From Chloroflexota bacterium (GTDB lineage: Bacteria > Chloroflexota > UBA11872), in assembly GCA_028873795.1 (NCBI GenBank), contig JAPPNP010000083.1:1-49050 (forward strand): DNA of 49,050 bases, in the 5' to 3' direction. The notes beneath the pieces are model-generated. The model saw only the letters and a list, made by a program, of their open reading frames with translations, ran no database searches and had not been told where the DNA came from. The translations under genes were made by a program, and so were the position numbers. Of the stretch, positions 2,218 through 8,797 are shown piece after piece. Positions within the stretch are counted from its first letter, which is position 1. The number at the start of each line of letters is the position of its first letter.

Positions 2218-2580
2218 CTATTCGCCGGCGGCCTGCGCGTGCGCCAGCCGTTCGAACGCATCCGCGTCGAGCCCGATGATGCGCTCCTCGCCTTGGACCA
2301 CGATCGGCCGCCGCACCACGACGTTATTCTCCTGCATGATGCGCAGCGCCGATTCGTCATCCAGATCCTGGTGCGCGATGCCGAGCTTTCGAAAGGCCGG
2401 ACTGCGCGGGTTGACGAACGAGACCGCCGAGCCGCTGCCAACGATGTCGGCCAGTTCCTCGGTCGTCAGCGCCCGTCGGGCGTAGTCATGCGGCTCGTAC
2501 TCGACGCCGGCTCCGTCCAAGGCCGCACGGGCCTTGCGACAACTGTCTCAGGTACTGCGGAAATAGAACCGCGTCGTCAT
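2218..2580 (-). CDS. ArsC/Spx-like thiol-redox protein, probable selenoprotein with in-frame TGA
   Basis: A 120-residue ArsC/Spx/YffB-fold protein, read through one in-frame TGA (codon 11, 2550-2548). Seen: the frame starts at ATG 2580, overlapping the upstream dehydrogenase stop as ATGA. It reads MTTRFYFRST-[TGA]-DSCRKARAAL, then continues without interruption through typical family features: TTEELADIV, the NPRS..FRKLG stretch and the RRPIVV..EE..IGLD segment. In family members the TGA position is the first cysteine of C-x-x-C (for example SCTSCRKAR in Spx), so the product would carry U-x-x-C. A SECIS-like hairpin follows the TGA. Known: Cys/Sec exchange at redox sites is the usual pattern in thioredoxin-fold selenoproteins. 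Inferred: selenocysteine at residue 11. The alternative is a Cys-to-stop point mutation (pseudogene) or sequencing error. Starting after the TGA would give a 100-residue protein without its redox site. Confidence 0.75.
2518..2536 (-). promoter_or_regulatory. Candidate bacterial SECIS hairpin
   Basis: On the mRNA (minus) strand a perfect 7-bp stem, CAAGGCC (2536-2530) and GGCCUUG (2524-2518), closes a five-base loop CGUGC (2529-2525). The loop begins 18 nt after the in-frame UGA and has G at loop position 2, followed by U. Published bacterial SECIS searches use a UGA-to-loop distance of roughly 16-37 nt, a small loop, and a G in the first two loop bases; all are met. It lies inside the coding sequence, as bacterial SECIS elements do. 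Confidence 0.65.
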
Positions 2581-3665
2581 GTCACCTCTCCCTCGGACGA
2601 GTCCGTCCAATCGAGGACGATTGCCAGCCAACCGCTCGGTCCTTGCTCGATCAGGGCGTACATTTCCGCAGCGCCGGCATAGGGCACGCGGTGCGAAACG
2701 AGATGGTCGACGCGGAGTTCACCGCGGGCCATCAACTCAATCACGTATTCCCGATTGCGCGGGCGCGGCCATTGAAACTTGTGATAGGGCTCGTGTGGAT
2801 AGAAGGCCTGATACGTGCCGAAGATCGTGAGCTCGCGTCGCAGCAGGTCGACCTGCAACTCAATGCCCACGGCGCCGGGAGCGCTGCCGGTCACGGCAAT
2901 GACGCCCCCGTTGTCGGCGGCCCGAATGCAGTCTGGCAGCACGTGCGGCGTGCGCGTCGCCATAAACACCGCGCGCGCGCCGACCCCATATGAGACGTCA
3001 CGAATAGCCTCAACCGCGTCGTCGCGCCCGGCATTGACGGTGTGGGTGGCGCCGCTTTCGAGGGCATTCTCCAAGCGTCGCTCGTCAAGGTCCACGGCCA
3101 CGACCGGATAGGCGCCCGCCATGCGGGCAAACTGCACGATGAGCTGTCCCACCACCCCGACGCCGAACACGGCCACGGCGTCGCCGATCGAAGGCTGCGC
3201 TCGCCGCACGGCATGCAGCGCGACGTCGGCCAGCGATACAAACGTGGCCGCGTCGTCCGAGACCGCGTCCGGCAGCAACTGCGGAACCTCGAGCCTGGAC
3301 ATTGGTCGATCGTCCGGCGGGATCAAGGCCAAGCTCACGTGCTGCAGCGAGGCCACGATCCGATCGCCCGCGGCAAAACCGGCGGTCTGGTCGCCGGCCT
3401 CGAGTACGCGCCCCACCCACGAGTAACCCGGGCGCAGGGCGTCCGGGGCCTCGGACAGGCCGGCGGCCCGATGGTCGCCTTCGAGCAAGTTCTGCTCGGT
3501 GCCAGCGCTTATCAGCGTGCGGGTGGCCTGGGCCAGTAGCTGCGACGGCGCGGCATCGGCCACCGGCCGTTCGGCGACCCGCACCTCGCTGGGCGAAGGA
3601 AACTCGATTTGGCGGGCAATGCGCGGCAAGGAATCAGCCACTTGGAATCGTGCGCGGGCAAGCAT
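2577..3665 (-). CDS. Medium-chain (zinc-type fold) dehydrogenase
   Basis: A 362-residue NAD(P)-dependent oxidoreductase of the MDR superfamily. Seen: an N-terminal GroES-like catalytic domain (roughly 20-150) containing ISAGTE, GYSWVGRVLEAG and FAAGDRIVA; a Rossmann segment with GVGVVGQLIVQFARMAGA followed by the acidic end of the second beta strand (VAVDLDERRL); and an MDR C-terminal cap. The usual catalytic Cys and His zinc ligands of alcohol dehydrogenases are not obvious, so it may act without catalytic zinc; the substrate is unknown. Its stop overlaps the start of the ArsC-like selenoprotein (ATGA), so the two are translationally coupled and may share a redox task. ATG at 3665 is the only Met start before the domain; it lacks a clear Shine-Dalgarno, so the first ~15 residues are uncertain. 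Confidence 0.82.
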   Translation of the reverse strand: MLARARFQVADSLPRIARQIEFPSPSEVRVAERPVADAAPSQLLAQATRTLISAGTEQNLLEGDHRAAGLSEAPDALRPGYSWVGRVLEAGDQTAGFAAGDRIVASLQHVSLALIPPDDRPMSRLEVPQLLPDAVSDDAATFVSLADVALHAVRRAQPSIGDAVAVFGVGVVGQLIVQFARMAGAYPVVAVDLDERRLENALESGATHTVNAGRDDAVEAIRDVSYGVGARAVFMATRTPHVLPDCIRAADNGGVIAVTGSAPGAVGIELQVDLLRRELTIFGTYQAFYPHEPYHKFQWPRPRNREYVIELMARGELRVDHLVSHRVPYAGAAEMYALIEQGPSGWLAIVLDWTDSSEGEVT

Positions 3666-4717: not shown

Positions 4718-6457
4718 TTAGGTCGTGCGCGAGACTCGCACGGCAATGACGTCGACGCCGTGATATTTCTGGTGCTGCACCGACGAGGCGTAGTGCCACA
4801 GCAGACGGAACGATACCTCGCGTTCGTCGGGCGCCGGGGGCAATTCGCTGAGATAGGCCAGGCGGTCCTCCATGTTCTCGGTCTCCAAGGCCGTCACGAA
4901 TTCCATTTCCACCGCCTGCCCCTCCCTGCGGGCAGAAACGGCGAGGCGGCGCTCGACGTCGTCGGTCGCGTCTTCGGTCCCCTGCAGCAGGATGGCCAGC
5001 GTTTCTTCGCCCGCCGAGGCCAACCGGTCCGCCGACGCGGAATTCCAACCGTTCTTCGCCGCGAACTCGCGCAGGAATTCGTCGATCCTCGGCAACGCGG
5101 CCATGTTCAACCCGACCTGCAGACGCCGGCGCCGCGGGCTCGTCAACTCCAGGAACAACATCATGATGATGGCGGCGAGCGCGCCCGACGTCATGCCGTT
5201 GCTCAGGAATACGCCGATGAAACCGTCGCCCAATTGGTCGGCGAAGATCACCTGGTTCTGAAATCCCACACCGATCCAGAACGACAATCCGGCGACGGCG
5301 GCCGTTCGGTGATCGACCCCGTCGTCGACGATGATCTTCATCCCCTGCACGAAGAGCACGCCGATGAGAACGGTGATGTAGGCCGCCGCTACGGGACCCG
5401 GAATGGCGATCAGCAAGGCCGCAACCTTGGGGAAGAACGCCAGAATGATGAAGATGACGCCAATGGCGACGCCCACGCGGCGGGCGGCTATGCCGGTGAC
5501 GCCGGACAGCGGCACGCTGCTCGAATAGGTGGTGTTGGGCAACGTCCCTGCCAGGCCGGACAGCAGATTGCCCATACCGTCGGCATTGAGCGCACCCTGG
5601 ACCAGGCGGAAGTCGGTGGCCCGCGGCTTGCGGCGCGACACCTGCTGAATGGCCACGCTGTCGCCAATGGTCTCAATGGCGCCAACGATCGTGACCACGA
5701 TGAACGCCGGAAGGAGCGCCCAAAACTCGACGTTAGGCGTCAGATCGAAGCCCGGCCATCCGTCCAGCGGAATGCCGACCCAAGGGGCGTCGAGCACGGG
5801 CTGCGTGTCGTATAGACCGAAGGGCGCGGCGGCAACGCAGCCTACGACGATGCCGATCAGCGGGGACCAGAGCCGCCACTTGGGTGCCGCGCGCAGGATC
5901 AGCGCCGCGACAGTCGCCAAGGTGGCCAGCGCGGCAATCGGCGCCGCCACCGGCGACGTGCCCTCAGGCACCTGCGTCAGCGCATCAAACACGAGCGGCA
6001 TCACCGTGACGGCAATCAGCATGATTACCGTGCCGCTGACGACCGGCGTGAAAATGCGCCGAAACAGCTGGAGCCGTGCGGCCAGCAGAAACTGAAACAG
6101 CGCCGAAACGACGACAAGGCTGGCCATCGTGGATGGGCCGCCTTTGACCAGCGCCGTGACGCAGACTGCGATGAAGGCTCCGGACGTCCCCATGAACAGC
6201 ACATGCCCCGCCCCGATTCGCCCGACACGGACAGCCTGGAGAATCGTGGTAAAGCCGCTGATCAGGAGCGCCGCGAACACGGCCCACGACAGATAGCCGG
6301 CGGACTGGCCGGCGATCTGCACCACAATGACGACGGTCAGAATGACCGGCGCCAGCATGATCATGGCCGCCTGAAACCCGACGCCGCCGGCTAGCAACCA
6401 AGGGGGGCGCTCATCCGGCTCGTAGCGGATGTTTTCGTTCGGCAGTGCCTCAGCCAT
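4718..6457 (-). CDS. NCS2-family purine/uracil permease with extra C-terminal domain
   Basis: A 579-residue protein. Residues ~20-440 form a nucleobase:cation symporter-2 (UraA/xanthine permease) transporter with about 14 hydrophobic segments and the family core around ETIGDSVAIQQVSRRKP and the LPNTTYSSSVP segment. Substrate is predicted to be a nucleobase, uracil or xanthine/urate. Typical NCS2 proteins are 430-480 residues; this one carries ~130 additional soluble residues. That tail (LPRIDEFLREFAAKNGW, then RLASAGEETLAIL) resembles the first helices and N-box of RsbW-type HATPase domains, but no glycine-rich ATP lid is visible, so a degenerate or divergent regulatory domain is the guess. 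The start is supported by GGAGGG about 10 bases upstream of the ATG. The 234 bp upstream (6458-6691) holds no gene I can support and no clear purine riboswitch. Confidence 0.85.
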   Translation of the reverse strand: MAEALPNENIRYEPDERPPWLLAGGVGFQAAMIMLAPVILTVVIVVQIAGQSAGYLSWAVFAALLISGFTTILQAVRVGRIGAGHVLFMGTSGAFIAVCVTALVKGGPSTMASLVVVSALFQFLLAARLQLFRRIFTPVVSGTVIMLIAVTVMPLVFDALTQVPEGTSPVAAPIAALATLATVAALILRAAPKWRLWSPLIGIVVGCVAAAPFGLYDTQPVLDAPWVGIPLDGWPGFDLTPNVEFWALLPAFIVVTIVGAIETIGDSVAIQQVSRRKPRATDFRLVQGALNADGMGNLLSGLAGTLPNTTYSSSVPLSGVTGIAARRVGVAIGVIFIILAFFPKVAALLIAIPGPVAAAYITVLIGVLFVQGMKIIVDDGVDHRTAAVAGLSFWIGVGFQNQVIFADQLGDGFIGVFLSNGMTSGALAAIIMMLFLELTSPRRRRLQVGLNMAALPRIDEFLREFAAKNGWNSASADRLASAGEETLAILLQGTEDATDDVERRLAVSARREGQAVEMEFVTALETENMEDRLAYLSELPPAPDEREVSFRLLWHYASSVQHQKYHGVDVIAVRVSRTT

Positions 6458-6691: not shown

Positions 6692-8797
6692 CTAGCGGCT
6701 GTAGCCGGAGGGGGCTTCCGGCGGGGCCTCGGAGTACGCCCGCTCCGCCATCCGCTCCAGCAGGAAGCGGAAGTCGCGATAGGCGTCCAGGCCGCCCAGC
6801 GGACCGGCCAGGGCTCCCAGCTCCTCCTGCAGGATCGCCAGGTCGGTGGACACGCCCGCGGGGCCGTCTTCGGTGCCCCGCGGCAGGCTGCTGTAGCGGT
6901 CCGCCGCCAGCGCCACGATGCCGCCCAGCCGCAGCAGCGGGTCGGCCTCGACGCTTCCGAAGCTCAGGTCGCGTCGTCCCGTCACTTCGACCTGCTGGCT
7001 GCGCGACTGGCCCGTGTCGGGCACCACCCAGCGCAACTCCACCTTGCCCAGCGTCAGGTCGTCACTGCCCCGCACGCCCTCCTGCAACTCCACCTCGTAG
7101 AACACCGTCGTCGCCGCCCCCGACGGCAGCTCCGCGAACTCCTTGCGGTCTTCCGCGAAGCTGGCGTCCGACGTCACCCGATTCTCATACCCAATGATCC
7201 GCCAGGACTTGACCACCTCCGGGTCCCACGTCACCTGCGCCCGCGTCTGGTCCGCGAAGGGCGTCGACAGCGCCAGCCAGTTCGCCCGGCTGAACGTGGC
7301 CCGCGCCTGGTTCGAGTCGTTGAGATACCGGTACCAGCCGTTGCCGTGCTGCGCCAGCTGCTCCAGCAAGACGTCGTTGTAGTTGTTGATCCCCACGCCG
7401 ACCGTGATCAGGCGCAGCGGGTTGCCCGCGTCCCGGTCATAGGCCGACTCCAGGATCGCGAACGGGTTGGTGGCGTCCACGTTGGCCACTCCGTCCGACA
7501 TCAAGATCACGTAGTTGGTGGCGTCGGGCCGTTCCAGCCGCGCGCGGTGCGCCAGCTGCACGCCCAAGTTCAGCCCCGCCTGCACGTTGGTGCTGTCATG
7601 CGGCGCGAGCTGGGCAATGGATGAGGCCACCGACGGGTCGTCCGGTGACTGATGCTCAACCGTGAGGTAATGGATCACGCCGGTCGTGAAGTGCACCACC
7701 GCGATCCGGTCTTGCGGGCGCAGGCTCTGGCGAATCGCCTCTGCCGCCGCCCGCGCGATGTCCACCCGGTTGCCGTCGCCCATCGAGCCCGAGGCGTCGA
7801 GCACCAGCGTCACGTTGAGCGGGCGGTCGTCGGCGACTTCCGCCGCCTGGAACCCGATCCGCACCAGGTGCTGGCGCTGGTCGAGCGGGTGCGCCACCAG
7901 GTCGCTGGTGATGCTGAAGCCCCAGGCGTCCGCCGGCGGGGCGTACTGGTAGTCGAAGGCGTTGATCCACTCCTCGGCGCGCACCGAGTCCGGCTCGACG
8001 TCGTAGCCCTGCCGCGCCCAGGTGAGCGCCAACTGATACGACGTGCGGTCGGTGTCCAGGCTGAATGTCGAGACGGCGTCGTCCACCGTCGCAACGGACG
8101 GCTGGCGTCCGTAGTCCTGGAAGGTGGTGTCGGGCGGTCGCGTAGCGGGAGGCGGCGCGGCCTCGGCGGCCGCCGCGGCCGGTGCCGTGGCGGCAGACGG
8201 GGGCGGCGCCGGGGTGGGGCTTGCGGCCGGCATCATCGTTTCCGCCCTTGGCTGGGTGACGACTTTCTCAACCTCAACCACCTTTTCGACCTCGACCACT
8301 TTCTCGACCACGACCTCCTTGATCACTTCCTGGGTCACGATCTTCTCGACTGGTACCTCCTTGATGACCTCTTGCGTCACGACCTTCTCGACGACGGCCT
8401 CGACCGGAACTTCCTTGATGACTTCGACTTCCTTGATGACCTCCCGCGTCACGACCGTCTCGACCGGAACCTCTTTGATCACCTCTCTGACTTCGGCGAC
8501 CGCCATGGCTTCATCGGCAACGGAAGACTCTTGCCCAAGGTTTCCGGCCACCAGTACCGCGGAAGCGGCAACCGCAACGGCCCCGCCGGTGACCATGACC
8601 GGCAGCCAGTTCCGCTTGGCGGCCGCCAGGATCTTGCGTCGAATCCGCGTGACGGGATTCGGCGCCGGGAGCGGTTCGAGCCGGCCCTCCAGCGACTCCC
8701 AGAGATTCGTAGGCGCGCGCAGGTCGTCCGCCTCCGCCGCGAAGTGCCGGCGCAGCGTGCGCTCCATGTCTTGATCTGGCGAGTAGTTATCGGCCAT
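6692..8797 (-). CDS. Membrane-anchored VWA-domain protein (YfbK-like)
   Basis: A 701-residue protein: short cytosolic N-terminus (1-63), one membrane segment (~64-86), a Val/Glu/Lys repeat stalk (~103-182), an Ala/Pro-rich linker, a YfbK N-terminal-like region (~225-310), a von Willebrand factor A domain (~328-505) and a C-terminal DUF3520-like region. Seen: an intact MIDAS motif D334-A-S-G-S338 and the later ILMSDGVANV strand, so divalent-metal-dependent ligand binding is likely. Topology predicts VWA outside the cell. Its start overlaps the end of the ECF sigma factor gene by 11 bp, and an AGAGAGG precedes it. Inferred: the cytosolic N-terminus could act as an anti-sigma partner of that sigma factor, which would make this a sensor; no anti-sigma motif is recognisable. 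Confidence 0.85.
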   Translation of the reverse strand: MADNYSPDQDMERTLRRHFAAEADDLRAPTNLWESLEGRLEPLPAPNPVTRIRRKILAAAKRNWLPVMVTGGAVAVAASAVLVAGNLGQESSVADEAMAVAEVREVIKEVPVETVVTREVIKEVEVIKEVPVEAVVEKVVTQEVIKEVPVEKIVTQEVIKEVVVEKVVEVEKVVEVEKVVTQPRAETMMPAASPTPAPPPSAATAPAAAAAEAAPPPATRPPDTTFQDYGRQPSVATVDDAVSTFSLDTDRTSYQLALTWARQGYDVEPDSVRAEEWINAFDYQYAPPADAWGFSITSDLVAHPLDQRQHLVRIGFQAAEVADDRPLNVTLVLDASGSMGDGNRVDIARAAAEAIRQSLRPQDRIAVVHFTTGVIHYLTVEHQSPDDPSVASSIAQLAPHDSTNVQAGLNLGVQLAHRARLERPDATNYVILMSDGVANVDATNPFAILESAYDRDAGNPLRLITVGVGINNYNDVLLEQLAQHGNGWYRYLNDSNQARATFSRANWLALSTPFADQTRAQVTWDPEVVKSWRIIGYENRVTSDASFAEDRKEFAELPSGAATTVFYEVELQEGVRGSDDLTLGKVELRWVVPDTGQSRSQQVEVTGRRDLSFGSVEADPLLRLGGIVALAADRYSSLPRGTEDGPAGVSTDLAILQEELGALAGPLGGLDAYRDFRFLLERMAERAYSEAPPEAPSGYSR
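8251..8498 (-). repeat. Tandem stalk-coding repeat (EVIKEVPVE / VEKVVTQ type)
   Basis: Degenerate tandem repeats encode ~80 residues of the VWA protein (about residues 103-182). Units such as EVIKEVPVE, KVVTQ and EVEKVV recur many times, giving a regular pattern of alternating Val/Ile and charged residues. This would suit an extended beta-rich or coiled spacer between membrane and VWA domain. The same residue pattern occurs in the transporter binding protein at 18484-18650. Confidence 0.8.

Follow-up and report, generated by a model that had tools for sequence, protein, structure and literature searches.

By sequence comparison, the gene on the minus strand at positions 2580 to 2218 of the window (the whole analysed stretch of 49,050 nucleotides) is a real selenoprotein gene of the ArsC/Spx superfamily, whose UGA at codon 11 (2548-2550) is read as selenocysteine. 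Translation of this interval gives 120 codons, beginning with MTTRFYFRSTUDSCRKARAALD, and a TAG stop at 2220-2218. The TGA is the only one in the frame, which confirms the clean reading on both sides of codon 11 described in an initial annotation of the sequence. A Shine-Dalgarno-like GAGGTG is located 5′ of the ATG (2583-2588). Sec11 opens a Sec11-x-x-Cys14 motif, and Cys14 (codon at 2539-2541), the presumed resolving cysteine of UxxC, is invariant in 26 aligned homologues. Taken as a whole, it is very probable in our judgement that the gene encodes a Sec11 selenoprotein, served by a hairpin and by the Sec machinery of its own genome, which acts as a selenol/thiol oxidoreductase and has a role beside an MDR dehydrogenase. 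Standard gene prediction would cut such a selenoprotein gene short or overlook it.

Fold and probable activity

The protein was assigned to the ArsC superfamily by PF03960 (54.2 bits; gathering score 24), which places the TGA at the first cysteine of the family's CxxC, as had been proposed. The AF2 model (pLDDT 92.8) shows a thioredoxin fold with structural matches to YffB (Z 15.8), Spx (Z 15.6) and ArsC (Z 12.3). Arg91-cis-Pro92 is invariant among the homologues and Arg59 is near-invariant. From fold and motif, the best reading of the protein would be that of a selenol/thiol oxidoreductase. Sec11 sits where helix 1 of the ArsC/Spx-type thioredoxin fold begins and is predicted to be the attacking nucleophile, in an active site probably shaped by Arg91-cis-Pro92 and Arg59. 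A protein disulfide, a sulfenic acid or a small oxidant could serve as its oxidised substrate. The intermediate would then be resolved by Cys14, with formation of a selenenylsulfide, and the enzyme may be regenerated by a thiol reductant of the cell (thioredoxin or glutaredoxin type).

Two other functions have to be weighed against this reading. The protein could bind RNA polymerase as a Sec-based redox switch similar to Spx, with UxxC replacing CxxC. Spx is among the best structural and profile matches, and the Spx/MgsR model TIGR01617 is only narrowly missed (73.7 bits, cut-off 75.05), while two relatives (L037 and L039) pass it. However, Gly52 of Spx, which is essential for the contact to the alpha-CTD of RNA polymerase (PMC3386922), is aligned here to Ser, Ala or Lys with a two-residue deletion alongside, and the C-terminal tail of Spx is absent, so that a switch of this type is improbable. 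Somewhat less probable again is the function of an arsenate reductase linked to glutaredoxin, in which Sec would replace Cys12. The ArsC family fold speaks for it, and in the alignment with annotated ArsC the equivalent of Arg94 is kept (Arg91). In genuine ArsC, however, Cys12 is activated by Arg60, Arg94 and Arg107 (PMC5360009), and here the Arg107 equivalent is Leu or Phe and the Arg60 column holds Asn in the window protein. Furthermore, the model of R773-type arsenate reductases (TIGR00014) gives 35.1 bits against a cut-off of 106.05, and no ars genes were recognised beside the selenoprotein gene among the window neighbours in the Pfam and ORF listing. Because the equivalents of Arg107 and Arg60 as well as Gly52 and the tail are missing, the protein can be classed neither with the classical arsenate reductases nor with classical Spx. 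The initial label 'ArsC/Spx-like' holds for the superfamily fold, but by these residue tests it extends neither to arsenate reduction nor to the regulation of RNA polymerase.

The hairpin and the conservation of the UGA codon

A hairpin is located at 2518-2536 (minus strand), 11 nt past the UGA. Its 7-bp stem pairs 2536-2530 with 2524-2518 and encloses the 5-nt loop CGUGC (2529-2525), which has G and U at positions 2 and 3 and lies 18 nt from the UGA. Folded alone, the hairpin has an energy of -10.5 kcal/mol. It agrees with all published rules for bacterial SECIS elements: a loop of 3-9 nt, a stem of 4-16 bp, G in the first two loop positions, a spacing of 16-37 nt and an MFE of -7.5 or lower (PMC13188914). 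Stem, loop and spacing are thus as initially described, but they do not amount to the independent proof they were taken for. In the GC-rich window, a hairpin with 7 or more bp that satisfies this rule for stem, loop and spacing follows 109 of the 1191 TGAs (9%), and the 52-nt stretch around the hairpin folds no better than its shuffles (z -0.19). About 25 further open reading frames with TGA and hairpin turned up when the window was scanned; they look like chance matches, and we used them as a false-positive rate. The hairpin alone is weak evidence, since 9% of the window TGAs equal it and shuffled sequences fold as well.

Comparison between genera turns it into strong evidence. The hairpin codons 16-21 show 2.7% synonymous differences between genera vs 49.5% in the rest of the gene, and they form the segment of the gene with the lowest synonymous divergence. 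In one genome (G016) a stem pair is changed from G-C to A-U by two synonymous, compensatory substitutions, and another (G002) has one G-U pair. Formal covariation of the stem is slight, with one pair altered on both sides and the same value reached by 37 of 500 shuffles, because the stem hardly varies.

The hairpin also bears on the possibility that translation restarts after the TGA, for example at codon 21, a conserved TTG, and yields a 100-residue product without the active site. The ORF finder begins at this place (2218-2520) and the TTG is kept in 17 sequences, but its constancy is explained by its being part of the hairpin stem. The codons 5′ of the TGA and the UxxC are conserved too, and according to the model a protein starting there would lack strand 1 together with the larger part of helix 1. 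A restart is therefore very improbable.

The reading of codon 11 as selenocysteine is further supported by the distribution of the TGA. Among 151 related genomes a homologue was detected in 28, and 25 of these carry TGA, always at the UxxC position. A wider sample of 400 genomes of the phylum gave a homologue match in 49, whose sequences were read individually. Of the 49, 42 from 16 families have TGA at exactly this codon, and neither TAA nor TAG was seen at the Sec site in any of the 49. Three homologues (G030, G038 and G204) have Cys at this site. The remaining four matches are other relatives, namely G244, which is of the arsenate-reductase type with GRP, and G196, G213 and G383. Ten matches without a stop inside the matched stretch were read singly, and in three of them (G247, G397 and G266) the TGA lies just outside. 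In G266 (L157), which is counted among the 42, a frameshift further downstream separates the TGA and UxxC from the reading frame of the remaining protein, due to either an assembly error or decay. In the related genome G001 the place of the gene reads N, so that its absence there is no loss, and in G004 neither the selenoprotein gene nor the MDR gene gave a match. Overall, homologues with Sec greatly outnumber those with Cys throughout the phylum.

The alignment of Cys-containing homologues at codon 11, which had been suggested initially, shows Cys at this position not only in the three phylum members but also in named Acidobacteriota and other bacteria. The latter were detected by scanning contigs with the Cys-form alignment, a search that could return Cys homologues only, because its back-translated pattern has a Cys codon where Sec would stand. 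In a tree of the homologues the Sec forms cluster; its deep branches are compatible with a single or with several origins.

The initial annotation had itself named three possible objections, a lack of the Sec machinery (which is present, see below), a sequencing error at 2548-2550 and scattered stops under relaxed selection; all three were checked, and each result favours the selenoprotein. An error or a nonsense mutation in a pseudogene would also appear as an in-frame TGA, but the occurrence of TGA, and never TAA or TAG, in 42 independent genomes already refutes this by conservation. In seven pairs, the part after the UGA has a dN/dS of 0.06-0.17, which indicates purifying selection; neither scattered stops nor relaxation were found. 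An explanation by error or pseudogene is hardly credible.

Selenocysteine machinery and gene neighbourhood

The host genome (3.18 Mb in 89 contigs, 96.6% complete) contains all four components for which a search had been recommended: selA (499.9 bits), selB (295.9 bits), selD (376.3 bits; L048 1531) and tRNA-Sec (71.3 bits), for which ARAGORN gives the anticodon UCA. By sequence comparison, the insertion of selenocysteine at codon 11 is directed by the hairpin 11 nt downstream together with SelA, SelB, SelD and tRNA-Sec of the same genome. In the phylum sample, SelA scores above the cut-off in all 42 genomes with the TGA form, against a background of 320 in 400; this co-occurrence is support and gives no probability, because the genomes are related. 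Within family f11, two Sec-form genomes (G046 and G083) have SelA, SelB and tRNA-Sec, whereas none of the three was detectable in the Cys-form genome G204, which is 80% complete.

The selD gene of the host genome has an in-frame TGA of its own. In almost all selD hairpins of the same lineage the loop reads CGUG followed by A, C or U, comparable to CGUGC in the selenoprotein gene. The common CGUG loop suggests that both genes may be recognised by the same SelB. selD was a Sec gene in all 19 genomes in which it was found (including L126-L143). In the SECIS loop of selD, CGUG-N is found in both f3 genomes and nearly throughout f1, whereas f2 and f4 have GGU, so the type of loop varies from lineage to lineage.

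The gene directly upstream (2577-3665, minus strand) encodes an MDR dehydrogenase without the catalytic-zinc cysteines. In Pfam only its NAD-binding domain is matched, and the protein has a single Cys, in the nucleotide-binding half, so that no classical catalytic zinc site is possible. Both genes are translationally coupled in the window. The ATGA overlap, by which the start had been fixed in the initial annotation, is real (2577-2580), but two members of the genus (G005 and G002) do not have it: their MDR gene already ends at a TGA some codons before this point, and a GGAGGTGAC-ATG ribosome site replaces the overlap. A change of the genetic code, by which this genome would read TGA as an ordinary amino acid, would likewise leave the selenoprotein frame open, but it is practically negligible as an explanation in view of the TGA that ends the adjoining MDR gene, here and earlier in G005 and G002, the full Sec machinery and the frozen hairpin beside the TGA.

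Most likely, the selenoprotein with Sec11 takes part in redox chemistry or repair, in a step connected to the zinc-less MDR dehydrogenase encoded next to it. In family f1, which comprises two genera, the MDR gene is located directly upstream in several genomes (e.g. G000, G003, G008, G014, G018 and G006), and in other genomes of the family it is found about 900-970 bp upstream with another gene in between. This link was seen in family f1 only. A more far-reaching proposal combines a phylum-wide Sec-dependent redox enzyme, from a subfamily that the curated model of ArsC selenoproteins does not cover, with the zinc-less MDR dehydrogenase in one undescribed pathway, where the selenol would reduce an intermediate or partner of the dehydrogenase; we consider this unlikely. 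The pair of Cys and Sec forms within one family (G204 vs G046 and G083), matched by the loss of the Sec machinery, and the stable neighbour gene in f1 provide a handle on the function of an uncharacterised group of selenoproteins.

Several further features of the neighbourhood were observed. In several genomes of genus g2, the interval between the MDR and selenoprotein genes (L024 530-1360) contains a membrane-protein-like gene without Pfam match and a remnant of the MDR C-terminus readable in antisense. In the window, two tandem CxxCxxCC (YkgJ) paralogues (550-1308 and 1389-2198) are convergent to the MDR-selenoprotein pair, and the YkgJ family is also present near the selenoprotein gene in genus g2 (L024 and L031). 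Other genes of the window encode a xanthine/uracil-type permease (4718-6457), whose C-terminus is extended by about 150 residues without Pfam match, and a YfbK-like VWA protein (6692-8797) with a long V/E/K-rich repeat segment (EVIKEVPVEKVVTQ).

Comparison with known ArsC-like selenoproteins

A selenoprotein of the UxxC ArsC/Spx type is already known as a kind. ArsC-like selenoproteins were reported in 2006 (PMC1794560), and the Global Ocean Sampling survey of 2008 described 42 Sec sequences of 'Arsenate reductase 2' (cd03032, UxxC) (PMC2398784), so that the remark on such proteins from marine surveys in the initial annotation was right. These proteins belong to the same ArsC/Spx superfamily and have Sec first in UxxC, a likeness drawn from their description; no gene context of 'Arsenate reductase 2' was found in the text of the survey (PMC2398784). 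A review from 2026 lists NF041106 (ArsC_rel_Se_1), an ArsC family (seleno)protein with UxxC (PMC13188914). The window protein has superfamily and UxxC in common with this model but scores far below its curated cut-off (29.3 vs 85 bits), and the phylum relatives scanned reach up to 51.2 bits. Since the scores are below the cut-offs of both NF041106 and TIGR01617, the protein may represent a subfamily that is not covered by a curated model, where the comparison with the survey proteins and NF041106 was made by motif and profile.

Of the characterised relatives, YffB/ArsC-like proteins (1rw1) are closest in length and in structural Z; YffB-type proteins carry CDTMKK without a second Cys, in contrast to UxxC in the window protein. 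With Spx/MgsR (TIGR01617; Spx 1z3e, 3gfk and 7f75) it has the fold, the position of CxxC and the RRPI motif in common, but it differs in having Sec for the first Cys and in lacking an equivalent of Gly52 and the C-terminal tail. With R773-type ArsC (1i9d) it shares the fold and the position of the catalytic Arg94, but not Arg107. Compared to these systems, the new element is a firmly supported additional ArsC/Spx-type selenoprotein which is conserved in one bacterial phylum.
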